From Mesorhizobium sp. LSJC280B00 (lineage in GTDB: Bacteria; Pseudomonadota; Alphaproteobacteria; Rhizobiales; Rhizobiaceae): 64,000 nucleotides of DNA. Shown here piece after piece: positions 16,963-28,155 of the stretch. The stretch covers positions 1 through 64,000 of the forward strand of contig NZ_AYVL01000006.1 in NCBI RefSeq assembly GCF_000502835.1. Reading direction: 5' to 3'. A program made the position numbers and the translations under genes. The notes under the pieces were generated by a model that made no database searches, was not told the origin of the DNA, and saw only the letters and a list, made by a program, of their open reading frames with translations. Each line of letters opens with the position of its first letter. Positions within the stretch are counted from its first letter, which is position 1.

Positions 16963-18603
16963 CTAAGGCTGCTTTGCCATCTCCCGCAGCCGGAACTTCT
17001 GGATCTTGCCCGTCGAAGTCTTCGGGATTTCCGCGAAGATCACCGCTTTCGGCACCTTGAAGCGGGCGAGCAGCGCGCGGCAGTGCTCGATTACCTCCGC
17101 CTCGGTCGCCGCCTTGCCCGGCTTCAGCTCGACATAGGCGACCGGCACCTCGCCCCATTTGTCGTCGGATCGGGCGACAACGCCGCAAGAAGCGACGGCG
17201 GGATGCTTGTACAGCGCCTCCTCGACCTCGATCGAGGAGATGTTTTCGCCGCCGGAGATGATGATGTCCTTGGAACGGTCCTTGAGCTGGATGTAGCCGT
17301 CCGGATGGATGACGCCGAGGTCGCCCGAATGGAACCAGCCGCCGGCAAAGGCCTCGTCGCTCGCCTTGCGGTTCTTGAGATAGCCTTTCATGACGATGTT
17401 GCCGCGGAACATCACCTCGCCGATGGTCTCGCCGTCGGCCGGCGTCTCTTGCATCGTCTGCGGGTCCATCACCGTCAGGCCTTCGAGCGCGGCATAGCGT
17501 ACGCCTTGCCTGGCCTTCTTCGCCGCCCTCGCCCCTTTCTCCAGCCGGTCCCACTCGCCATGCCATTCGTTGACGACGGCCGGGCCATAGGTTTCGGTCA
17601 GGCCGTAGAGATGGGTGACGGCAAAGCCCGCATCGGCCATGCCCGACAGCACCGCCTCGGGCGGCGGCGCCGCGGCGGTGTTGAAGGTGACGGTCTGCGG
17701 GAACTGCCGCTTGTCCTCGTCCCTGGCGTTGATCAGCACCGACATGACGATGGGTGCACCGCACAGATGGGTGACGCCGTGATCGGCGATGGCGTCGTAG
17801 ATCGGCTTCGGCCGCACCCAGCGCAGGCAGACATGCGTGCCGCCCTGCACGGCAAGCGTCCAGGGAAAGCACCAGCCGTTGCAGTGGAACATCGGCAATG
17901 TCCACAGATAGACGGGGTGCTTGCCCATGCCGGCATGGATGGTGTTGGCATAGGCCATCAATGCCGCGCCCCGATGGTGGCAGACGACGCCCTTCGGATT
18001 GCCTGTCGTGCCGGAGGTGTAGTTGAGCGAAATGGCATCCCATTCGTCGTCCGGCATCGACCAGGCGAAATCCTCGTCGCCGCCGGCGACAAACGCCTCA
18101 TAGTCCAGCGTGCCGATCCGCTCGCCCTTGGGATAGGGCGCATCGGCGGCATAGTCGGGATCGTCGTAATCGATCAGCAGCGGCCTGACCTTGGCCAGCG
18201 TCAGCGCTTGCCGAACCACGCCGGCGAATTCGCGGTCGACGATCAGCACCTTGCTTTCGGCGTGATCGAGCTGGAAGGCAATGACGGCGGCGTCGAGGCG
18301 GGTGTTGAGCGAATGCAGCACCGCCCTGGTCATCGGCACGCCGAAATGCGCTTCCAGCATCGGCGGTGTGTTGGACAGCATGACGGTGACGGTGTCGCCC
18401 TTGCCGATACCGCGCTTCGCCAGCGCCGAGGCAAGCCTCAGCGAGCGCTTCCAGAAATCGCGATAGGTCGTGCGCTGGCGGCCATGGATGATGGCGGTCT
18501 GATCGGGAAAGGTTTTTGCCGCCCGCTCAAAATAGGTCAGCGGCGTCAGCGGCTGGTGGTTGGCCGGGTTCCTGTCTAGGTCCTGTTCGTAGGGATTGCC
18601 CAT
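16963..18603 (-). CDS. Acyl-CoA synthetase (AMP-forming)
   Basis: A 546-aa member of the adenylate-forming ligase family that activates a carboxylic acid to its CoA thioester via an acyl-AMP. The ATP-binding loop YTSGTTGNPKG, the HLYGLTETYGP motif, FHSGDLGVIHPDGYIQLKDR region and the C-terminal catalytic lysine in KTSTGKIQKF are all present. The start at 18603 has GGAGGA 6 bases upstream. The protein resembles medium- or short-chain fatty-acid and methylmercaptopropionate ligases; the substrate cannot be told from sequence. It is divergent from the SorC regulator, and the TetR gene follows on the same strand. Confidence 0.88.
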   Translation of the reverse strand: MGNPYEQDLDRNPANHQPLTPLTYFERAAKTFPDQTAIIHGRQRTTYRDFWKRSLRLASALAKRGIGKGDTVTVMLSNTPPMLEAHFGVPMTRAVLHSLNTRLDAAVIAFQLDHAESKVLIVDREFAGVVRQALTLAKVRPLLIDYDDPDYAADAPYPKGERIGTLDYEAFVAGGDEDFAWSMPDDEWDAISLNYTSGTTGNPKGVVCHHRGAALMAYANTIHAGMGKHPVYLWTLPMFHCNGWCFPWTLAVQGGTHVCLRWVRPKPIYDAIADHGVTHLCGAPIVMSVLINARDEDKRQFPQTVTFNTAAAPPPEAVLSGMADAGFAVTHLYGLTETYGPAVVNEWHGEWDRLEKGARAAKKARQGVRYAALEGLTVMDPQTMQETPADGETIGEVMFRGNIVMKGYLKNRKASDEAFAGGWFHSGDLGVIHPDGYIQLKDRSKDIIISGGENISSIEVEEALYKHPAVASCGVVARSDDKWGEVPVAYVELKPGKAATEAEVIEHCRALLARFKVPKAVIFAEIPKTSTGKIQKFRLREMAKQP

Positions 18604-18746
18604 CCCGTCCTCCGCAATGTGTTCGTCGAGAACTTTAGCTACCGGCTTCCGACCCGTCACCACCAACGATGCCATCATAGACCGCGTTTGGCACAAGAAA
18701 GGTCTAGATTTGGCGAGCGAAAGGGCATCTATGCCTTCCTCCCAAT

Positions 18747-18774
18747 TTGACTTTTGTCGAGAGCCGTGAATAAT
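18747..18774 (+). promoter_or_regulatory. Candidate promoter of the SorC regulator-aldolase operon
   Basis: TTGACT at 18747-18752, a 16-base spacer, and AATAAT at 18769-18774. Transcription would begin near 18781, so the leader is very short and the AAGGAG ribosome-binding site would lie close to the 5' end. Confidence 0.5.
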
Positions 18775-18791
18775 GTCAGCAAGGAGATGGC

Positions 18792-19757
18792 ATGGCGATC
18801 CGACCGGCAGAACAGCTTATCCACAAGGCCGCCTGGCTTTACTATGCACACGGCCTGCGCCAGGACCAGGTGGCCAGCCAGCTCAAGATTTCCCGTGCCT
18901 CGGTGGCGATGTATCTGCGCAAGGCGCGCGAGACCGGCATCGTCAACATCTCGACCTCGACCCAGCTTTTCACCGACGACGTGCTGGCACGCAAGCTGGA
19001 AGACGCGCTGAAGCTCGACGCGGTCTGGATCGCGCCGGAAAACGGCTATGTCGCCGACCCCTCGACCGACATCGCGGTGCTGGCGGCAAGCGTCTTTCTC
19101 GAGCTGATCAGGAAGGGCGACCGCATCGGCGTCGCCTGGGGACGGACCATCTACACGATCGCCGACATCATGTCCTATGCCGATCTGCAGGACGTCACCG
19201 TGGTGCAGCTCTGCGGCAATCTGGGCGCCCCCTATTCGTACCGGCCGGACCAATGCACGATGGAAATCGCGCGCCGGCTCAACGCCAAGGGGCTGAATTT
19301 CTACGCGCCGCTGGTGCTGACGACGGAAGAACTGGCACGCGGCCTGCGCGCCGAGCCGGTGATCCGCGAGCAATTGTCGGGCATCGGCGAATGCGGCCTG
19401 GCGCTGTATTCGGTAGGCTCGGTGGACACCGACAGCCATCTGGTCAAATGCGGCGCGCTGACGCCAAGCGAAATGGCTGTATTGCGCAAGGCGGGTGCGG
19501 CCGGCGTCATTGCCGGGCAGATCATCGACGCCCGAGGCCAGGCGCTCGACTGCAGCTACAACCGCCGGCTGATTTCGGCAGAGCTGTCATCGCTGCGCAG
19601 GATCGGAAAGCGCCTTGTAGTGGTGCAGGAGGACAGCAAGTTCGAACCGCTCGCCGCGGCGATCGCCGGCGGGCTCTGCACCCATCTCGTCGTCGGCGCG
19701 CGCATGGCGCGGCGGCTGCTCGACCACGCTGGAGCAACAGCAGAAGAGGTCGCCTGA
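18792..19757 (+). CDS. SorC/DeoR-type sugar-binding transcriptional regulator
   Basis: A 321-aa regulator with an N-terminal helix-turn-helix (DQVASQLKISRASVAMYLRK, residues about 25-44) and a C-terminal SorC effector domain that normally binds a phosphorylated sugar. AAGGAG lies 5 bases before the ATG. The aldolase-dehydrogenase gene follows 83 bases downstream on the same strand. Given the gene set around it, the natural inducer may be methylthioribose-1-phosphate, methylthioribulose-1-phosphate or the 5-deoxy analogue. It is the best candidate to bind the perfect palindrome at 25694-25722. The family call is firm; the ligand is inference. Confidence 0.9.
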   Translation: MAIRPAEQLIHKAAWLYYAHGLRQDQVASQLKISRASVAMYLRKARETGIVNISTSTQLFTDDVLARKLEDALKLDAVWIAPENGYVADPSTDIAVLAASVFLELIRKGDRIGVAWGRTIYTIADIMSYADLQDVTVVQLCGNLGAPYSYRPDQCTMEIARRLNAKGLNFYAPLVLTTEELARGLRAEPVIREQLSGIGECGLALYSVGSVDTDSHLVKCGALTPSEMAVLRKAGAAGVIAGQIIDARGQALDCSYNRRLISAELSSLRRIGKRLVVVQEDSKFEPLAAAIAGGLCTHLVVGARMARRLLDHAGATAEEVA

Positions 19758-19840
19758 TACCCAGTTCCAGCCGCCGGCGCGTTGGCATCAATGTGTCGCG
19801 GCATTCCTGTTCCAACAAAGAGAAATCGGACGAAGCTGAC

Positions 19841-21895
19841 ATGAAGAACCTGTGGAATGACGGCGAGGCGGAGAAGCTGGTCGCCGACTATGCAAAGAAG
19901 GGTGTGGCCCGCGATCTGGCGCTGCGCGTCTATACGACCAGGCTGCTGGGCGGCGAGCCGCGGCTCGTCCTGCATGGCGGCGGCAACACCTCGTGCAAGA
20001 CCAAGGCCACCGACCTTGTCGGCGACGAATGGGACGTGCTCTGCGTCAAGGGCAGCGGCTGGGACATGGGCGTCATCGAGCCGCAGGGCCTGCCGGCGGT
20101 CAAGCTCGGCGCGCTGTTGAAGGCGCGGTCGCTCAAGAAGCTCTCCGACGAGGACATGGTCGCGCTGCAGCGGGCGAACCTCATCGATCCGTCCTCGCCC
20201 AATCCGTCGGTCGAGACGCTGCTGCACGCCTTCCTGCCGCACAAATTCGTCGACCACACGCATTCGACAGCGATCCTGGCCATCGTCGACCAGGAGGACA
20301 GCGAAGCGCTGAGCCGGAAGGTGTTCGGCGAAAAGATGGGCTTCGTGCCTTACATCATGCCGGGCTTCGATCTGGCCAAGGCGGCCGCCGATGTATTCGA
20401 CGCCGATCCGACGGTCGAAGGCCTGATCCTAGACAAGCACGGCATCTTCACCTTCGGCGACGATGCCAGGCAGGCCTATGACCGGATGATCCATTATGTG
20501 AACGTCGCCGAGGATTTCATCGCCGGGAACGGCAAGCCGCGCACCGAAAAAGTGGCACTGCCGGCCAGGCTGGCGAAGCCCGCGGACATTGCGCCGATGC
20601 TGGGCGGCGCGGTGGCGGTGGCACGCGGCGAAGGCCGCTTCGATCGGATGATCAGCGATTTCCGCACCTCGGATGCGATCGTCGATTTCATCAATTCGGC
20701 AAAAATTGCCGACTATGCCGGACGCGGCGTGTCGACACCCGACCTGTCGATCCGCATCAAAACCGGACCGATGGCACTGCCGGCGCCCGACGCGGACAAG
20801 GTCGGCGACTACAAATCCGTCATCCGCCAGCATGTCGAGAAATTCGCCAAGGACTATCGCGCCTATTTCGAAACCAATGATGCGCTCGACGACGTGAAGC
20901 GCACCATGCTCGACCCGATGCCGCGGCTGACGCTGGTGCCCGGCCTCGGCATGTTCGGCCACGGCCGCACGCTGAAGGATGCGAAGATTGCCTCGGACGT
21001 CGGCGAAATGTGGATCGAGGCGGTACGCGGCGCCGAAGCCGTCGGCGATTTCCGCCCGCTCTCCAAAAGCGATCTGTTCCCGCTCGAATACTGGTCGCTG
21101 GAACAGGCCAAGCTCGCCGCCAACAAGCCGAAGCCGCTGACCGGCCAGGTGGTGCTGGTCACCGGCGGCGCCGGCGCGATCGGTGCTGCCACGGCAAAGC
21201 TGTTCGCCGACAACGGTGCCCATGCCGTCGTCGTCGATCTCGATGGGTCAAGGGCTGCCGAGGCGGCAAAAAAGGCTGGCAACGGTTCGATCGGCATTGG
21301 CGCCGACATCACCGATCCGGTGCAGATGCGCGCCGCCTTCGACAAAGCGGTCGACGTCTACGGCGGCCTCGACATTCTCGTCTCCAATGCCGGTGCTGCC
21401 TGGGAGGGCCGGATCGGCGAGCTCGACGACGCCACCTTGCGCAAAAGCTTCGAACTCAATTTCTTCGCCCATCAGTCGGCGGCGCAGAATGCCGTGCGCA
21501 TCATGCTGGAACAGGGCACCGGCGGCGTGCTGTTGTTCAACACCTCCAAGCAGGCGGTCAATCCGGGGCCGAAGTTCGGCGCCTATGGCATTCCCAAGGC
21601 GGCAACGCTGTTCCTGTCCAGGCAATATGCGCTCGACTACGGCGCGCATGGCATCCGCTCCAATGCCGTCAACGCCGACCGCATCCGTTCGGGGCTGTTG
21701 ACCGATGCCATGATCACCAGCCGCTCGGGCGCGCGCGGCGTCTCGGCGAAGGAGTACATGTCCGGCAACCTGCTCGGGCAGGAAGTGACGGCCGAAGACG
21801 TCGCCCAAGCCTTCCTGCATCAGGCGCTGGCCGAGCGGACCACCGCCGATGTGACGACAGTCGATGGCGGCAACATCGCGGCGGCGTTGAGGTAG
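19841..21895 (+). CDS. Bifunctional class II aldolase / short-chain dehydrogenase (RhaD-like fusion)
   Basis: A 684-aa fusion. Residues 1 to about 400 are a class II sugar-phosphate aldolase of the fuculose/rhamnulose-1-phosphate type with HGGGNTS (45-51) and metal-binding histidines at 139, 141 and 200. Residues about 430-684 are a short-chain dehydrogenase with the NAD(P) loop TGGAGAIG (441-448), NAG, a serine in FNTSKQ and the YxxxK pair Y582/K586. Family knowledge: fusions of this type split rhamnulose-1-P into DHAP and lactaldehyde and then convert the aldehyde. Here no rhamnose isomerase or kinase lies nearby; mtnK and mtnA do, so the substrate is more likely 5-methylthioribulose-1-P or 5-deoxyribulose-1-P, giving DHAP plus an aldehyde. 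Confidence 0.88.
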   Translation: MKNLWNDGEAEKLVADYAKKGVARDLALRVYTTRLLGGEPRLVLHGGGNTSCKTKATDLVGDEWDVLCVKGSGWDMGVIEPQGLPAVKLGALLKARSLKKLSDEDMVALQRANLIDPSSPNPSVETLLHAFLPHKFVDHTHSTAILAIVDQEDSEALSRKVFGEKMGFVPYIMPGFDLAKAAADVFDADPTVEGLILDKHGIFTFGDDARQAYDRMIHYVNVAEDFIAGNGKPRTEKVALPARLAKPADIAPMLGGAVAVARGEGRFDRMISDFRTSDAIVDFINSAKIADYAGRGVSTPDLSIRIKTGPMALPAPDADKVGDYKSVIRQHVEKFAKDYRAYFETNDALDDVKRTMLDPMPRLTLVPGLGMFGHGRTLKDAKIASDVGEMWIEAVRGAEAVGDFRPLSKSDLFPLEYWSLEQAKLAANKPKPLTGQVVLVTGGAGAIGAATAKLFADNGAHAVVVDLDGSRAAEAAKKAGNGSIGIGADITDPVQMRAAFDKAVDVYGGLDILVSNAGAAWEGRIGELDDATLRKSFELNFFAHQSAAQNAVRIMLEQGTGGVLLFNTSKQAVNPGPKFGAYGIPKAATLFLSRQYALDYGAHGIRSNAVNADRIRSGLLTDAMITSRSGARGVSAKEYMSGNLLGQEVTAEDVAQAFLHQALAERTTADVTTVDGGNIAAALR

Positions 21896-21914
21896 ATCTA
21901 AACACCGGACCAAC

Positions 21915-21945
21915 AAAAAGAGCGGCCCGCGAGCCGCTCTTTTCC
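21915..21945. terminator. Bidirectional intrinsic terminator between convergent genes
   Basis: Arms 21916-21926 (AAAAGAGCGGC) and 21933-21943 (GCCGCTCTTTT) pair perfectly around a six-base loop, with A on one side and T on the other, so it can stop the aldolase transcript and the opposing ABC-transporter transcript. Confidence 0.85.
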
Positions 21946-21963
21946 TTTGCCTATAGCGAAAGA

Positions 21964-23019
21964 CTACTTCGCGTTCGGGTTCGGCATCCAGGCCGGCATC
22001 GCGACGTCGGCATGGGCGAATTGCGGCAGCTTGGCCGAGAGGTCTTCCATGTTCTTGATGTCCTTGTCGACGAGGTCCTTCTGGGTGATCAGCGTCGGCG
22101 GTACAATGACGTTGTGGCCGGGATCTTCACCGGCCAACAGCTGCGCCAGCGCACGCACCGAGACCTGGCCGACGACGGCCGGGTTGGTGGCGGCGGTTGC
22201 CGCCCAGGCGCTGTCCGGCTCGCGCATCGCGGCGATGTCCGAGGTCGAGATGTCGGCCGAATAGATCTTGATGTCCTTGTTCAGTCCGGCTTCGTCGACC
22301 GCGATCTTCACGCCCTTGGCGAATTCGTCATAGGGCGCGAACATCACCTTGATGTCGGGGTGGGCCGATAGCACCGAACGGGCCTGGTTGGCGACCGAAT
22401 TGGCGATCGGATTGTCGAGCGTGCCGAACATGGCGGCTTCGTTGATGCCCGAATATTTCTTCTTGAATTCGACCCAGGTCTCGTTGCGGCGGTCGAGCGG
22501 CGCGATGCCGGCGACATAGACATAGCCGGCCTTCCAGCTCTCGCCATTGTCCTTGACCGCCTGTTCGAGCGCCAGGCGCGCGAGGTCGCGGTCGGATTGC
22601 TCGATCTGCGGGATCTTGGGGTTTTCGACATTGACGTCGAAGGCGACGACCTTGATGCCGGCCTCGACCGCGCGCTGGGCGGCGTCCTTCATCGATTCCG
22701 TCAGGCCGTGCTGGATGATGATGCCCTGGACGCCGAGCGCGATGGCCTGGTCGACCATGTCCGCCTGAAGCGCCGCGTCCTGGCGGCTGTCGAGCACGCG
22801 CAGGTCGACACCGAGTGCCTTGGCCTGCGCCTCGACGCCGGACAGATACGCCTGGAAGAAGTCGCCAGTCGAGAGATAGCGGACCAGCGCTATCTTGACG
22901 GCGCCCGGCTTGTCGAACGGCGCCGGCCTGTCCTGCGCCATCGCCGGCAACTGCATAAGCAATGTTGCGCCGGCAAGCCCGAGCGCTGCCTTCCCTAAAA
23001 GCCTTCTTGTGATGTTCAC
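21964..23019 (-). CDS. Sugar ABC transporter, periplasmic binding protein (RbsB type)
   Basis: A 351-aa periplasmic binding protein of the ribose/galactose family (peripla_BP_4). The GTG at 23019 is chosen because GGAGG lies 7 bases upstream; it opens a signal sequence with paired arginines (ITRRLLGKAALG) ending at PAMAQ, possibly a Tat signal. It has the family's SRQDAALQADMVDQAIALGV segment. It is the third gene of a minus-strand ABC operon (ATPase, permease, binding protein) that lies between the aldolase fusion and mtnK-mtnA, so its ligand is probably the sugar these enzymes use: 5-methylthioribose, 5-deoxyribose or a related pentose. The ligand is inference. Confidence 0.88.
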   Translation of the reverse strand: MNITRRLLGKAALGLAGATLLMQLPAMAQDRPAPFDKPGAVKIALVRYLSTGDFFQAYLSGVEAQAKALGVDLRVLDSRQDAALQADMVDQAIALGVQGIIIQHGLTESMKDAAQRAVEAGIKVVAFDVNVENPKIPQIEQSDRDLARLALEQAVKDNGESWKAGYVYVAGIAPLDRRNETWVEFKKKYSGINEAAMFGTLDNPIANSVANQARSVLSAHPDIKVMFAPYDEFAKGVKIAVDEAGLNKDIKIYSADISTSDIAAMREPDSAWAATAATNPAVVGQVSVRALAQLLAGEDPGHNVIVPPTLITQKDLVDKDIKNMEDLSAKLPQFAHADVAMPAWMPNPNAK

Positions 23020-23066
23020 GTCGTTTCCTCCACTTGTTGAACCCAAAATGTGACCCGGTCGAACCC

Positions 23067-24062
23067 CTATCTCCTGCCCCTGCCGGAAAGGGCGAAGGTA
23101 AAGACAAGGGCGACCACGAGAACCACGCCCTTGACGAAATCCTGCGTGTAGTAAGGCGCGTTCATCATCGTCAGGCCCTGCAACAGCACGCCGACAAACA
23201 CCGCGCCGACAGCCGTGCCGAAGGCGTTCGGCTTGGCGGCGCCGAGAACCGCGTAACCGATGAGTGCCGCAGCCACCGCGTCGAGCAACAGATTATTACC
23301 CGAGGCGATGTCGCCGCGTCCAAGCCGGGCAGCGAGCAAAATGCCGCCGATCGAGGCAAAAACTCCCGAAATCACATAGGCCCAGATTTTGTATGCCTTG
23401 ACAGGCGCGCCGGCGAGTTCTGCGGCGCGTTCGTTGCTGCCGACCGCATACATCATGCGCCCGAAACGCGTGTATTCGAGAAAGAACCAGATCAGCACCG
23501 CCAGCACGAGCAGGACGACGACCGACACCGGAATGAGGTTCGGGATGAAGAAATCGAAGCGATGGCGGCCAAGCGCCAGGAACGCGGCGCCGAAACTGCC
23601 GTTGGCGACCGAGCCGTCGGGCATGGTCATGCCAGTGGCGATCGAACGGCCCTCGGTCGGTATGCGCTGCAGGCCGACAAGCAGGAACATCATGCCGAGC
23701 GTCGCCAAAAGGTCCGGAACCCGCATATAGACGATCAGCCAGCCATTGATCAGGCCGACGACGGCGCCGATCACAAGACAGACGACGACCGCCACGACGG
23801 CGTTCTGCCCCAGCACCACCATGACATAGGCAGCCGCCATCATGGCGCTGGTGGCGACAGAGCCGATCGACAGGTCGAAGCCGCCGACGACCAGCGTGGC
23901 GGTGACGCCGAGCGCCAGAACACCGGTGATGGCGACCGACTGGAAGATGAAGACGGCGCTTTGCGGCGAGACGAAACCATCGGCGGCAACAGCGAAATAG
24001 GCGATCAGCCCGAACAACAGAACGATGAAGCCGTAGCGAATAGCATTGTCGCGCAGGATCAT
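23067..24062 (-). CDS. Sugar ABC transporter permease (RbsC type)
   Basis: A 331-aa inner-membrane permease of the ribose-type (CUT2) ABC family, with about eight to ten hydrophobic segments and the signature GGFDLSIGSV near residue 60 and VYMRVPDLLATLGMMFLLVG after it. GGGAG lies 6 bases before the ATG. It would form the homodimeric channel for the ATPase encoded upstream and the binding protein downstream. It has the typical length for the family. Confidence 0.9.
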   Translation of the reverse strand: MILRDNAIRYGFIVLLFGLIAYFAVAADGFVSPQSAVFIFQSVAITGVLALGVTATLVVGGFDLSIGSVATSAMMAAAYVMVVLGQNAVVAVVVCLVIGAVVGLINGWLIVYMRVPDLLATLGMMFLLVGLQRIPTEGRSIATGMTMPDGSVANGSFGAAFLALGRHRFDFFIPNLIPVSVVVLLVLAVLIWFFLEYTRFGRMMYAVGSNERAAELAGAPVKAYKIWAYVISGVFASIGGILLAARLGRGDIASGNNLLLDAVAAALIGYAVLGAAKPNAFGTAVGAVFVGVLLQGLTMMNAPYYTQDFVKGVVLVVALVFTFALSGRGRR

Positions 24063-24145
24063 TCAGCGCTCCCGCACGCTGGCACCGTCTTTATCCGACC
24101 CGAATTCATGCCCTCTCCATTCCAATTCTCATCGTCTTCCCGCTC

Positions 24146-25657
24146 TCAGGCTGCGCTGTGCAAAGGCCCGCCCGCCACTTCGGCCAGCAGACGCTCGAGA
24201 TCGACATCGGTATTGCGGTGCTCGCCGACGATCGTCTGCTCCGACATCACCAGGATGCGATCGGCCGTCTCCAGGGCTTCGTCGAGTTCGGTGACGAACA
24301 GCAGCGTCGCGCGGCCGTGGGCGCTGGTCCGCAGCTTGGCGGCGATATCGCGTCTGGCCGAGATGTCCACACCTTGAAACGGCTCGTCGAGGATGAAAAG
24401 CCTTGCCGCCTGCGACATCCAGCGGGCGACCATCACCTTCTGCTGATTGCCACCGGAAAGCGACGCCATCTCGTCCCTCTCGGAGCGACAGACGATGCCC
24501 AACTCCTGGATCTGCTGGCGAGCAATGGCGCGTTCGATACGGCGCTTGAGGACGCCGAGACGCGACATGCGCCTGTGGAACGGCAGGCTGATATTCTCCT
24601 GGACGTTGAAGTCGCCGACGATGCCGTTTTCGCCCCGGTCCTTGGCGACGAGAAACACACCGGCGGCAATCGCTTCGCCGGTCGATGCCGGCGCATAGGG
24701 TTTCCCGTTCAGCATCATGGTCCCGCCCAGCGGCTGGCGCAGGCCGAACAGCGTCTCGGCGAGCGCGGTCTTGCCGACGCCGACGAGGCCGGTGATGGCA
24801 ACGACCTCGCCGTCGCCGAGGGTCAGCGAAATCGGCCGGGCGCCTTCTGCAACCCGCAACCCGTCCGTGGCAAAAATTGCTTTGGCCGAATTCCTGGCGA
24901 CGATCCGCTCGAGCTGGATCTTGCGGCCGAGCATGGCGTTGACCGCACCTTCGTAATCCAGCGGCTTCTTGTCGAAGATGCCTGAGATGACCCCATCGCG
25001 CATCGAAATGATGCGATCGGCAAGCCGCCTGATGTCAGACATACGGTGCGAAATGTAGAGGATGGCCACGCCTTGCTGGCGAAGCCGGTCGAGCAATGCG
25101 AACAGCCGGTCGGCCTCGGCGCTGGACAGCGAGGAAGTCGGCTCGTCGAGGATCAGCACTTTCGGCCGGTGCGCCATGGCGCGGGCGATCGCCACCATCT
25201 GGCGGTCGGCCAGAGAGAGATCGCTGATCCGGGCCTTGAGGTCGATGGCCAGTCCCATGCGGTCGGCCACCGCCTTTGCCTCGCGACGCACCCGGCCTGG
25301 ATTGAACAGGGTCGGCACGCCGCTGCCGCTCAACCTGTCGAGGGTAAGATTGGTGGCGACGTCGAGGTCGGCGACGACACCGTCATTAATGTTCTGGTGG
25401 ACGGTGACGACGCCGGCGCGGATCGCCTCCGCCGGCGTTTTCGGGTCGAACTCATGACCGGCAAGCGACATCGAGCCGCCGCCATGGTCGTAGACGCCAC
25501 TGATGATCTTGACGAGGGTGGATTTGCCGGCGCCGTTGGCGCCCATCAGCACGGTCACTTCGCCGGCATGCAATTCGAGCGAGACGCCGCCAAGCACCTC
25601 GATATGGCCAAAGGATTTCCTCAGGCCGTCGACGCGGAACACGGCATCATTGCCCAT
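24146..25657 (-). CDS. Sugar ABC transporter ATPase, two-domain (RbsA type)
   Basis: A 503-aa ATPase made of two fused nucleotide-binding domains, typical of ribose-type importers. Domain 1 has Walker A GANGAGKST, a variant signature LSLADRQ and Walker B LILDEPTSS. Domain 2 has a variant Walker A GLVGVGKT, signature LSGGNQQ and Walker B LFILDEP. The start at 25657 has GGAGG 5 bases upstream; an in-frame ATG further up lies within the promoter. It is the first gene of the transporter operon, read divergently from mtnK across the palindrome at 25694-25722. Confidence 0.9.
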   Translation of the reverse strand: MGNDAVFRVDGLRKSFGHIEVLGGVSLELHAGEVTVLMGANGAGKSTLVKIISGVYDHGGGSMSLAGHEFDPKTPAEAIRAGVVTVHQNINDGVVADLDVATNLTLDRLSGSGVPTLFNPGRVRREAKAVADRMGLAIDLKARISDLSLADRQMVAIARAMAHRPKVLILDEPTSSLSSAEADRLFALLDRLRQQGVAILYISHRMSDIRRLADRIISMRDGVISGIFDKKPLDYEGAVNAMLGRKIQLERIVARNSAKAIFATDGLRVAEGARPISLTLGDGEVVAITGLVGVGKTALAETLFGLRQPLGGTMMLNGKPYAPASTGEAIAAGVFLVAKDRGENGIVGDFNVQENISLPFHRRMSRLGVLKRRIERAIARQQIQELGIVCRSERDEMASLSGGNQQKVMVARWMSQAARLFILDEPFQGVDISARRDIAAKLRTSAHGRATLLFVTELDEALETADRILVMSEQTIVGEHRNTDVDLERLLAEVAGGPLHSAA

Positions 25658-25676
25658 TCGTTCCTCCCTGACCATG

Positions 25677-25705
25677 ACGCTATGGGCTATATCGGCAATT
25701 GTCAA
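25677..25705 (-). promoter_or_regulatory. Candidate promoter of the ABC-transporter operon
   Basis: On the minus strand TTGACA (25705-25700), a 17-base spacer and TAGCGT (25682-25677). The -35 lies inside the left arm of the palindrome 25694-25722, mirrored by the mtnK promoter on the other strand. Confidence 0.55.
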
Positions 25706-25722
25706 CACGATTGACAATTGCC
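25694..25722. promoter_or_regulatory. Perfect 29-bp palindromic operator in a divergent promoter region
   Basis: Two perfect 12-base arms, GGCAATTGTCAA (25694-25705) and TTGACAATTGCC (25711-25722), around CACGA. Each arm supplies the TTGACA -35 box of one of two back-to-back promoters. A bound regulator would block both the transporter operon and mtnK-mtnA. The SorC regulator at 18792 is the best candidate. Confidence 0.8.
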
Positions 25723-25739
25723 AGCAGGCTTCCTAGCTT
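25711..25739 (+). promoter_or_regulatory. Candidate promoter of mtnK-mtnA
   Basis: TTGACA at 25711-25716 in the right arm of the palindrome, a 17-base spacer, and TAGCTT at 25734-25739. Transcription would begin near 25746, about 47 bases before the mtnK start. Confidence 0.55.
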
Positions 25740-25792
25740 GGCCCGACCGCGTTGGCTCCGCTATCATCGGAGCACATGAGCGGGAGGTGAGG

Positions 25793-27064
25793 ATGACTGG
25801 GAAATCGCCGTTCGAAGCACTGTCGGTCGAGACACTGGCGGGCCGTCTCGGTGCCAACGAGCCCCTGTGTTCGCAGATCGGCAAGGATACGAGCCAGTGG
25901 AAGGTTCGTGAAGTCGGCGATGGCAATCTGAACCTGGTGTTCATCGTCGAGGGTGCTGAGGGTGCGGCCGTCGTCAAGCAGGCCCTGCCCTACGTCCGGC
26001 TGGTCGGCGACAGCTGGCCGCTGCCGCTAAAACGCTCCTTCTTCGAATACCATGCGCTGACGCGGCAACAGGCGCGGGCGCCGGGTTCGGTGCCCGATAT
26101 CTATCACTTCGACGAAGGCCAGGCGCTGATCATCATGGAGTATCTGTCGCCGCACATTATCCTGCGGCGGGCGCTGATCGAAGGCCGGCAATTGCCCAAC
26201 ATCGCGACAGACATCGGCTTGTTCATGGCCCGCACGTTGTTTCGCGGCTCCGACCTGCATATGGCGACCAAGGACCGCAAGGCCGATCTGGCACTGTTCG
26301 CCGACAATGTCGAACTCTGCGACATCACCGAGAACCTGGTTTTCTCGGATCCGTATTTCGATGCCAAGATGAACCAGCACACCAGCCCGCAGCTCGATGG
26401 CATTGTCGCCGAGCTGCGCGCCGACCGCGACCTCAAGGTCGAGGCGCAGCGCATGAAGCACATCTTCGCTGCCAATGCCGAGACGCTGCTGCATGGCGAC
26501 CTGCATTCCGGCTCGATCATGGTCACCGACATCGAAACGAGGATGATCGACCCCGAATTCGCCTTCTACGGGCCGATCGCCTTCGACGTCGGCATGCTGC
26601 TCGCCAATTTCTGGATGGCGTTCTTCTCGCAGCGCGGCCATGAACAGGACGGAAGCCGCGACGCCATGCGTGACTATCTGCTCGGCGTTACGGTCGAGAC
26701 ATGGTCGGTGTTTCGCGCCGAGTTCTCGCATCTGTGGCGAACCGAGCGTACCGGCATGCTCTACCAGAAGAGCCTGTTCGAAGATCAGGGCGACAGGCTT
26801 GGCGCCGAGCAGGCGCTAGACCACATGCTGCATTCGATCTGGACCGATCTGCTCGGCTTTGCCGGCGTCGAGGTTCACCGGCGAATTCTCGGCCTTGCCC
26901 ACAATGCCGATTTCGAGACCATTGCCGATCCGGATCTGCGCGCCAGATGTGAGGCAAAGGCGCTGAAATTCGGCCGTCACCTCGCCGTCAACCGGCGCCA
27001 GATCCACAGCATCGACGAGGTCAACCGGTTGGCCGCGCTGATCGAACGGGAGAGCAGGATTTGA
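25793..27064 (+). CDS. mtnK: 5-Methylthioribose kinase
   Basis: A 423-aa kinase that phosphorylates 5-methylthioribose (and in some bacteria 5-deoxyribose) at C1. It has the aminoglycoside-phosphotransferase-like fold with the phosphate/nucleotide region [13 protein letters not shown], the catalytic loop [13 protein letters not shown] and the metal-binding [11 protein letters not shown] segment. The ATG at 25793 has GGAGG 5 bases upstream. Its stop overlaps the TTG start of mtnA (TTGA), so the two are translationally coupled. No genes for the later Met-salvage steps (mtnB, C, D or E) lie in the window, which points to an alternative fate of the product. Confidence 0.92.
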
Positions 27065-28155
27065 ACGTCGGCGACCGCCACTACCGCACCATCTGGCCGA
27101 GTGACGACGGGCGTTCGGTGGAGATCATCGACCAGCGCTGGCTGCCGCATGATTTCCGCATCGAAAAGATCGATTCCGTCGCCGGCATCGCCACGGCAAT
27201 CCGCGACATGTGGGTGCGCGGGGCGCCGCTGATCGGCGTCACCGCGGCCTATGGCGTCGCCATGCAGATGGCCGACGATCCGTCGGATGCAGCACTCGAC
27301 GCCGTCTGGGCAACCATGCACGAAACGCGCCCGACGGCGATCAATTTGCGCTGGGCGCTGAACGAAATGCAACGCTTCCTGCTGACGCTTCCCCTGGCAG
27401 AACGTGCCGCGGCTGCCTATCGGCGTGCCGGCGAGATCGCCGACGAGGATGTCGGCCTCAACCGCGCCATCGGCGCCCATGGGCTCGAAATCATCAAGGC
27501 GATCGCGGCGCGCAAGCAGCCGGGCGAACCGGTCAATATCCTGACCCACTGCAACGCCGGGTGGCTGGCCACGGTCGACTACGGCACCGCCACCGCGCCG
27601 ATCTATCTGGCGACGGAAGCCGGCATTCCAGTCCATGTCTATGTCGACGAAACACGACCCCGGAACCAGGGTGCCCAATTGACCGCCTGGGAGATGGCCG
27701 GCCACGGCGTGCCGCATACGCTGATCGTCGACAATGCCGGCGGCCATCTGATGCAGCGCGGCCAGATCGATATGGTCGTCGTCGGCACCGACAGGACCAC
27801 CGCCGACGGCGATGTCTGCAATAAGATCGGTACCTATCTCAAGGCGCTTGCCGCCGACGACAACGACGTGCCGTTCTATGTCGCGCTGCCGTCGCCGACG
27901 ATCGACTGGACTGTGGGCGACGGGCTGGCCGACATCCCGATCGAACAGCGCTCGCCCGACGAGGTCTCACTGGTCTGGGGCAAGACCGCTTCCGGAGAGA
28001 TCGCCCAGGTCCGCGTATCGCCGGAAGCCACGCCGGCGGCCAATCCGGCCTTCGACGTGACGCCGGCGCGGCTGGTCACCGGCTTGATCACCGAACGCGG
28101 TGTCGCTACGGCCTCGCGCGAAGGCCTGAGGGCGATGTTTCCCGAGCGCGGATGA
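27061..28155 (+). CDS. mtnA: S-methyl-5-thioribose-1-phosphate isomerase
   Basis: A 364-aa isomerase of the eIF-2B-alpha-like family that turns methylthioribose-1-P into methylthioribulose-1-P. The active-site cysteine lies in [10 protein letters not shown] (C164) and the catalytic aspartate in [19 protein letters not shown] (D244). It starts at a TTG that overlaps the mtnK stop; GGGAG lies upstream. With mtnK and the aldolase fusion it completes a possible three-step route from methylthioribose to DHAP plus an aldehyde. 5-Deoxyribose-1-P is a known alternative substrate of such enzymes. Confidence 0.92.

Follow-up and report, generated by a model that had tools for sequence, protein, structure and literature searches.

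A conserved locus of Mesorhizobium sp. LSJC280B00 with an importer and an aldolase-dehydrogenase fusion is probably a catabolic system for 5-modified ribose

Introduction

5'-Methylthioadenosine (MTA) and 5'-deoxyadenosine are by-products of S-adenosylmethionine use. This report concerns a locus at positions 18,747–28,155 of a 64,000-nucleotide stretch of Mesorhizobium sp. LSJC280B00 DNA (contig NZ_AYVL01000006.1, positions 1–64,000; the window). It holds genes for a kinase (mtnK), an isomerase (mtnA), a ribose-type ABC importer, a SorC-type regulator and a fusion of a class II aldolase with a short-chain dehydrogenase/reductase (SDR). In all likelihood, the locus combines SorC-controlled import with an oxidative variant of the dihydroxyacetone phosphate (DHAP) shunt, inducible by its substrate, for 5-modified ribose. 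The computed basis is family membership, a conserved grouping of the genes, a conserved palindrome and a binding protein that resembles a methylthioribose binder.

Methylthioribose is excreted by organisms without MtnK, such as Escherichia coli (PMC6302742). The excerpts of the literature used here describe four related systems. Extra-intestinal E. coli carries a DHAP shunt (mtnK-mtnA-ald2-permease; PMC12632272, PMC10986504), and the operon is repressed by MtnR, also named YjhU (PMC12632272). Bacillus thuringiensis salvages 5-deoxyribose with DrdK, DrdI and DrdA, and four of the drawn drd-type clusters carry putative sugar transporters (PMC6079011). Rhodospirillum and Rhodopseudomonas salvage MTA with MtnP, MtnA and Ald2 (PMC5893883). 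RhaEW (RhaD_aldol-ADH, TIGR02632) is a rhamnulose-1-phosphate aldolase fused to a lactaldehyde dehydrogenase (PMC3870299).

Results

Pathway genes in the locus and in the genome

MtnK and MtnA exceed their NCBIfam cut-offs (TIGR01767, 506.7 bits vs 275; TIGR00512, 418.3 bits vs 279), and so does the fusion with NF006192, the model for bifunctional aldolase/SDR proteins (1139 bits vs 639). Among solved chains, MtnK matches 2pyw (a molecule without a name) and 2olc ('Methylthioribose kinase'), and MtnA matches 1t9k ('Probable methylthioribose-1-phosphate isomerase'). All seven named genes are intact open reading frames (ORFs); the start codon of the fusion is the ATG at 19841. The layout given in the initial annotation is confirmed. 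The mtnA start overlaps the mtnK stop by 4 bp on the plus strand, hence the two genes look coupled. The three importer genes are divergent from them on the minus strand, and the fusion and sorC genes lie on the other side of the importer (both plus strand, 18792–21895).

The mtnA of the locus is the single IF-2B-family match in the whole genome (G000 in our labelling, in which G, C and L denote genomes, contigs and loci; 7.03 Mb, 120 contigs, completeness 100). No ARD-family gene (mtnD, PF03079) is found anywhere in the genome. Aldolase_II is found at four places, namely the locus fusion, a rhamnose-type fusion on contig C12, a PRK07490-type protein and one protein that scores below all cut-offs listed. 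None of the four reaches the mtnB cut-off (TIGR03328, 137 bits): the best score is 39.6, and the C12 protein is assigned as a rhamnose-type fusion. The earlier observation that mtnB, mtnC, mtnD and mtnE are missing from the locus therefore extends to the whole genome for mtnB and mtnD; mtnC and mtnE lay outside the search. Among six ORFs at the seven PNP_UDP_1 places of the genome, an MTAP-like protein remains below the mtnP cut-off (80.2 vs 274.85). An MTA/S-adenosylhomocysteine (SAH) nucleosidase is above its cut-off elsewhere in the genome (TIGR01705, 386.7 vs 152.2), so the cell can make methylthioribose internally. Thus, the genome lacks the MtnD and MtnB signatures of classical methionine salvage and has the methylthioribose kinase, methylthioribose-1-phosphate isomerase and MTA/5'-deoxyadenosine nucleosidase of a kinase-route DHAP shunt. 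Among the genes tested, the sole predicted onward route for methylthioribose consists of MtnK, MtnA and an aldolase.

The substrate is most likely 5-methylthioribose, with 5-deoxyribose as a second substrate. The ABC importer would take up the sugar, and the MTA/SAH nucleosidase would add sugar made internally. MtnK would phosphorylate C1 and MtnA would isomerise the product to a ribulose-1-phosphate. The aldolase half of the fusion would cleave the latter to DHAP and (methylthio)acetaldehyde or acetaldehyde, and the SDR half most likely oxidises this aldehyde with NAD+ to the acid. SorC would repress at the palindrome between the importer and mtnK and be released by a phosphorylated intermediate. 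We infer from sequences and models which reactions the enzymes catalyse, which sugar is bound, that the aldehyde is oxidised, and which molecules bind the palindrome and act as inducer.

The aldolase-SDR fusion

The model of the fusion has a pLDDT of 84.6. In a fold search, residues 1–228, the N-terminal class II aldolase domain, match 3m4r (Z 31.8, 212 aligned, 44% identity) and residues about 429–681 match many SDRs. RhaD, FucA and DrdA are absent from the rows of this search, which excludes nothing because the list is filled by SDR rows. In an alignment of relatives, the aldolase residues E125, H139, H141 and H200 and the SDR residues T441, G445, G448, D466, N540, Y582 and K586 are invariant in 19 rows, and S569 is nearly so. 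Their presumed catalytic roles are assigned from class II aldolase and SDR motifs; by such a motif D466, at the end of the second strand, presumably favours NAD. To our knowledge, RhaEW are the closest enzymes with tested activity. The fusion has a class II aldolase domain and, by its neighbourhood, a tie to mtnA. It is proposed to be a 5-methylthioribulose-1-phosphate/5-deoxyribulose-1-phosphate aldolase joined to an aldehyde dehydrogenase.

Alternatively, the locus might act on a deoxy sugar such as rhamnose or fucose, and the mtnK and mtnA annotations would reflect a distant likeness. The fusion does belong to the wider PRK08324/RhaD-SDR group. Its TIGR02632 score of 483.9 bits is nevertheless below the rhamnose-type cut-off of 567.75, whereas the second fusion of the genome, on C12, passes with 1065.6. 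Furthermore, MtnK and MtnA exceed equivalog cut-offs, and the fusion is not in a rhamnose locus, its neighbours being mtnK, mtnA, the importer and sorC. None of 22 rhamnose-type control fusions has mtnA, mtnK or mtnP alongside (the C12 copy, one from G295 and 20 from rows of 32–36% identity, of which only the C12 copy was scored against TIGR02632). The reading of the fusion as the rhamnose enzyme is rejected, and a locus for such a deoxy sugar is highly improbable. An action on rhamnulose-1-phosphate only, which the initial annotation had kept in view, finds no support in the genome.

Conservation of the gene grouping

The order set comprised 397 genomes, 143 of them with a match to the fusion at E <= 1e-60. 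Near full-length matches (44–100% identity) are present in at least 46 genomes, including that of LSJC280B00. Most other listed matches are rhamnose-type fusions of 32–36% identity, in addition to aldolase-only relatives near 45%; fragments in G311, G297, G326, G032, G057 and G386 were left uncounted. The mtnA gene is found in 43 of the 46 genomes vs 207 of the 351 others (Fisher p 1e-6, kinship ignored). It is absent from G047, G290 and G379, the last of which shows a piece cut by a contig end (L053). ARD is present in one of the 46 (G347) vs 18 of the 351.

Stretches of up to 18–19 kb around the family member were inspected in the 45 other genomes. In 30 of them mtnA lies near the fusion, and the stretches L043 and L044 end before its expected place. 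The contexts are mtnK, mtnA, importer and SorC (15 loci), mtnA and mtnP (9), mtnA alone (3), mtnK-mtnA (3), importer parts without mtnA (2) and none of these genes (13, four of them with a SorC gene). In named genomes, the best 80 of at least 596 candidates include 53 loci with mtnA, 16 with mtnP and 32 with the full importer cluster. Hosts of the full cluster include many Mesorhizobium as well as Nitratireductor, Rhizobium, Aquamicrobium, Chelativorans and Ahrensia. The retention of mtnK, mtnA, importer and fusion in relatives, suggested earlier as a check, is observed in both sets (15/45 and 32/80). In several Mesorhizobium, 1–4 kb of varying genes separate fusion and importer and the cluster is retained. 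Since the genes stay together in related genomes, even with such insertions, their grouping is more than chance. The inserted ORFs vary by genome and look unrelated by eye; they were rejected as additional pathway enzymes. Fusion and mtnA are on the same strand within 200 bp or overlapping in 24 of the 83 loci holding both; in LSJC280B00 they occupy opposite ends of the locus. The counts omit the 12 loci L088–L099 (aldolase-only or under 390 bits) and take the better member where a stretch has two (L079). The 125 family loci are partly dependent, as some species occur in both sets (e.g. L045 and L133).

A FastTree phylogeny was calculated from 158 rows, with ORFs over 730 aa trimmed to their last 700 residues and L043, whose mtnK and mtnA lie beyond the stretch, labelled as importer cluster. 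The 22 rhamnose-type rows form one separate branch (support 100). The locus fusion is among 49 rows (support 99), 43 of them with the kinase-isomerase-importer context. This group lies inside a set of 105 rows (support 97), to which the 25 rows with mtnP also belong. Five more importer clusters (L078, L081, L082, L084 and L086) fall in a second, 8-row group (support 100). Accordingly, the fusion family seems to have been tied to MtnA for a long time, and two separate parts of the tree hold the importer cluster, possibly by common descent with losses.

In other Alphaproteobacteria, family members often follow mtnP-mtnA, a route from the cell's own MTA. The main role of the locus could likewise be the clearing of internally made 5-deoxyribose or methylthioribose, the importer merely recovering leaked sugar. 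The MTA/SAH nucleosidase of the genome and the slower growth of B. thuringiensis mutants with 5-deoxyribose (as quoted in PMC10986504) are in line with such a role. However, 47 loci (a count in which some species appear twice) combine importer and regulator with the kinase, isomerase and fusion, and plasmids keep the combination as well; such retention fits a nutritional use of external sugar. Internal clearing as the main role is therefore considered unlikely.

Several relatives of the fusion have other settings. The p42a plasmid of R. etli (L242:8220-10268) encodes a 50% relative with a SorC-type regulator, an FGGY kinase, an SDR and an iron alcohol dehydrogenase nearby. Together with L075–L077 and L087, which show kinase-like ORFs by eye, it belongs to a branch of 44–50% identity that probably acts on another ketose-1-phosphate. 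The aldolase-only relatives L089–L096 (44–48% identity to the N-terminal 430 residues) mostly have a SorC-type gene and another sugar ABC importer as neighbours. L088 (G043:C6:409629-410969) is a homologue of the fusion with a match that crosses a TGA and a TAA, and is possibly decayed; G043 has mtnK-mtnA elsewhere (L230).

The binding protein of the importer

The best phmmer match of the binding protein is 4ry8 (E 5.4e-61), with a title that begins 'Crystal structure of 5-methylthioribose transporter solute binding protein TLET_1677'. The next is 5ulb (2.3e-37), and ribose binders are far behind. The AlphaFold model (pLDDT 78.8) aligns with 4ry8 at Z 38.4 (316 aligned, rmsd 3.2, 35% identity), compared with Z near 28 for E. 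coli RbsB entries. The sugar contacts of RbsB include the following residues. F15, F16, D89, R141 and D215 are kept in the binding protein and in 4ry8. R90, N190, F214 and Q235 are replaced by V, Y, A and T in the binding protein and by L, W, V and T in 4ry8, and N13 is G in both. S103 is kept in the binding protein and is D in 4ry8; N64 is Q and D, respectively. A pocket with fewer polar contacts suits a ribose with its 5-hydroxyl replaced. The probable ligand is 5-methylthioribose or 5-deoxyribose.

Close relatives of the binding protein are present in 18 of 398 genomes of the phylum. Those at L224, L225 and L228 stand without mtnK/mtnA, and an acyl-CoA-dehydrogenase-like flavoprotein gene lies beside those of L224 and L225.

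The SorC regulator and the palindrome

The SorC protein is 31% identical to E. coli YjhU (MtnR) over 305 aligned columns and is below the cut-offs of both NCBIfam DeoR/LsrR models. The interval from the ATPase gene to mtnK contains a perfect palindrome, its 12-nt arms flanking a 5-nt spacer. The pattern AATTGTCAA-N5-TTGACAATT has its sole window match there at <=3 mismatches (0.02 expected from shuffles). Its core TGTCAA-N5-TTGACA has one exact match in the genome and, at <=1 mismatch, 8 places including the palindrome, vs 3 for the pattern read backward. In 45 of 48 clusters the core, with a spacer of 5 or 6, is located inside the segment bounded by the far ends of the ATPase gene and mtnK, and those cluster stretches contain it at no other place; L082, L084 and L086 are without it. 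From 42 clusters, 25 distinct palindrome sequences with variable spacers were obtained. Bases outside the core often, not always, change in both arms together (AATTG/CAATT, AAATG/CATTT, ATTTG/CAAAT), and the element thus resembles the site of a dimeric repressor. The binder is probably the SorC protein.

A TTGACA (-35-like) hexamer reads outward in each arm, one for each divergent unit, so that one protein could cover both -35 regions. A promoter scan found no consensus promoter over the palindrome, the hexamers being without a good -10 box. It did list one upstream of sorC (18747–18774), with a frequency close to that expected by chance. Candidate second operators ahead of sorC are confined to degenerate sites with 2–3 mismatches, in 26 of 48 clusters. 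A sequence CAAAT-N9-ATTTG is pointed to in PMC12632272. Some rhizobial variants start with CAAAT and end with ATTTG with 15 bases between; no weight is given to this likeness.

A second branch in relatives

Four of the five plasmid records opened carry the cluster; the fifth is R. etli p42a with its 50% fusion relative in another setting. In these four, two genes for a split transketolase and one for a RuBisCO-like protein follow mtnA within 4–5 bp. Across Rhizobiaceae and other relatives, genes of this kind stand immediately 3' of mtnA or next to the same importer. At least one protein of the trio has a match over 100 bits in 14 of 154 loci, all but L085 beside the mtnK-mtnA-importer cluster. 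Eight of these 14 loci have the full trio, and the stretch end cuts most of the remaining ones. The RuBisCO-like protein passes no NCBIfam cut-off, the best score being 194.7 vs 409 with the 2,3-diketo-5-methylthiopentyl-1-phosphate enolase model. The trio may provide a second fate of methylthioribulose-1-phosphate.

The trio was not found in the LSJC280B00 genome. Two RuBisCO-family places were rejected as candidates for this branch, as they reach only 60–70 bits with the Rhizobiaceae protein and are without a split transketolase pair. On contig C21 (L254:7044-8537), a RuBisCO large-subunit family gene adjoins a transketolase-like gene and, by eye, an aldolase gene, a group that resembles a Calvin-cycle operon.

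Flanking features

The features are compiled in Table 1. The inverted repeat between the convergent fusion and binding-protein genes is possibly a two-way terminator; the terminator scan gave no entry for it. An acyl-CoA synthetase gene (NF006020; window 16963–18696, minus strand) is divergent from sorC. It stands beside sorC in 21 loci of the closest Mesorhizobium branch and not in the other clusters, including that of M. zhangyense. The enzyme could activate an acid product, or its position may be plain synteny.

Table 1. Coordinates of the features of the locus (window positions) and of the additional genes in related loci.
Feature	Position	Strand	Family or remark
SorC/DeoR-type sugar-binding regulator, proposed repressor	18792..19757	+	PF04198, 165 bits
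Aldolase-SDR fusion, 684 aa (class II aldolase N-terminal, SDR C-terminal)	19841..21895	+	PF00596 + PF00106
Inverted repeat, 14-nt arms, 93% complementary, no loop	21916..21943		between convergent fusion and binding-protein genes
Periplasmic binding protein of the importer	21964..23019	-	PF13407
RbsC-type permease	23067..24062	-	PF02653
RbsA-type double ATPase	24146..25657	-	PF00005, two stretches
Perfect palindrome GGCAATTGTCAA-CACGA-TTGACAATTGCC, proposed SorC operator	25694..25722		between ATPase gene and mtnK
mtnK, 5-methylthioribose (5-deoxyribose) kinase	25793..27064	+	TIGR01767; PF01636
mtnA, 5-methylthioribose-1-phosphate (5-deoxyribose-1-phosphate) isomerase	27061..28155	+	TIGR00512; PF01008; TTG start
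Split transketolase and RuBisCO-like protein downstream of mtnA	L240:2654-5717; L241:2477-5534; L243:20325-23382; L244:20325-23382
Further loci with split transketolase/RuBisCO-like matches	L054, L078, L124, L130, L131, L146, L234, L235

Discussion

The family models, the absence of the tested salvage genes, the match to 4ry8 and the tie of the fusion family to mtnA, mtnK or mtnP in other genomes support the earlier proposal of a DHAP-shunt locus that has an importer and a regulator of its own. Several observations weigh against it. The aldolase-domain profile, compared with one FucA sequence, gives no match (E 0.46), so the catalytic residues were related to FucA only by eye. Of the 125 family loci, 33 have no marker gene in the stretch and 6 more have only a SorC gene, some of them being cut by contig ends. 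The fusions of L075–L077 and R. etli p42a are near a SorC regulator and other sugar genes, which argues that the wider family is not single-purpose. G600 has mtnK-mtnA-importer without a fusion in 17 kb, and G040 and G080 hold the importer cluster with the fusion located elsewhere. Six of the 18 genomes with close binding-protein relatives (G023, G187, G446, G449, G524 and G680; 54–61% identity) are without mtnK/mtnA in the fetched stretches. Four aligned relatives of this kind share most pocket residues, so that 35% identity to 4ry8 leaves the ligand unfixed. Finally, the aldehyde released by Ald2 is thought to be reduced in Rhodospirillum and Rhodopseudomonas (PMC5893883), and oxidation is therefore not the sole option.

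In a reductive version of the same pathway, the SDR half would convert (methylthio)acetaldehyde to (methylthio)ethanol, comparable to the putative separate alcohol dehydrogenase of those two genera. Carbonyl reduction is common for SDRs, and 2-(methylthio)ethanol is the product observed with Ald2 (PMC5893883). On the other hand, the RhaEW enzymes of Chloroflexus and Bacillus form NADH by NAD+-dependent oxidation of lactaldehyde, and the Chloroflexus enzyme has no activity when supplied with NADH (PMC3870299). Oxidation to (methylthio)acetate or acetate is favoured for this reason, and reduction appears rather unlikely. The presumed NAD preference conferred by D466 also speaks against reduction.

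A broader proposition concerns the family as a whole, and all of its parts together are held with slightly less than even confidence. NF006192-type fusions would be a standing replacement of Ald2 in many Alphaproteobacteria, acting as NAD-coupled methylthioribulose-1-phosphate aldolase-dehydrogenases in an oxidative DHAP shunt that ends in (methylthio)acetate or acetate. In Rhizobiales, they would be built into an inducible import locus controlled through a SorC operator. Rhizobiaceae and others would carry in the same operon a second branch on methylthioribulose-1-phosphate, consisting of the split transketolase and the RuBisCO-like protein.

If oxidative breakdown of imported 5-modified ribose is correct, a dedicated importer and an inducible pathway turn leaked sugars into a carbon source for soil bacteria. 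The one-protein aldolase-dehydrogenase would then answer concretely where the reactive aldehyde goes, and a large family annotated just as 'bifunctional aldolase/short-chain dehydrogenase' would gain a function.

The DHAP shunt, transporter-bearing kinase-isomerase-aldolase clusters, the RhaEW fusion and a methylthioribose-transporter binding protein are each known separately (excerpts of PMC6079011, PMC12632272, PMC10986504 and PMC3870299; title of 4ry8). Our literature search found no account in which methylthioribulose is connected with an aldolase-SDR fusion, or Rhizobiales with an ABC importer for methylthioribose; the 2020 North survey was outside that search. The importer, put forward earlier as an addition to the shunt, is present. 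As a novelty it counts for less, since transporters beside kinase-isomerase-aldolase clusters have been reported (PMC6079011).

The E. coli DHAP shunt has the same kinase and isomerase and uses a class II aldolase; a transporter gene accompanies it, and its regulator comes from the same broad family (31% identity). It differs by Ald2 in place of the 684-aa fusion, by a single permease in place of a three-part ABC importer with binding protein, and in gene order and proposed operator. The drd genes of B. thuringiensis encode the same kinase, isomerase and aldolase steps to DHAP and an aldehyde; DrdA is related to fuculose-1-phosphate aldolase, and the excerpt of that account describes no aldolase-SDR fusion (PMC6079011). 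The MtnP-MtnA-Ald2 route has the intermediate and cleavage proposed here and uses MtnP, whereas LSJC280B00, with no mtnP over the cut-off, has the kinase route. RhaEW has the same domain order as the locus fusion. The rhamnose-type fusions are nevertheless a separate branch of about 33% identity to it, and the locus fusion misses TIGR02632 and lies among mtn genes. TLET_1677 of Thermotoga lettingae is the best match of the binding protein in both sequence and fold. The palindrome between importer and mtnK is a new element of this analysis. Taken together, the locus is a real, conserved variant of a known pathway, and most of the initial annotation stands.

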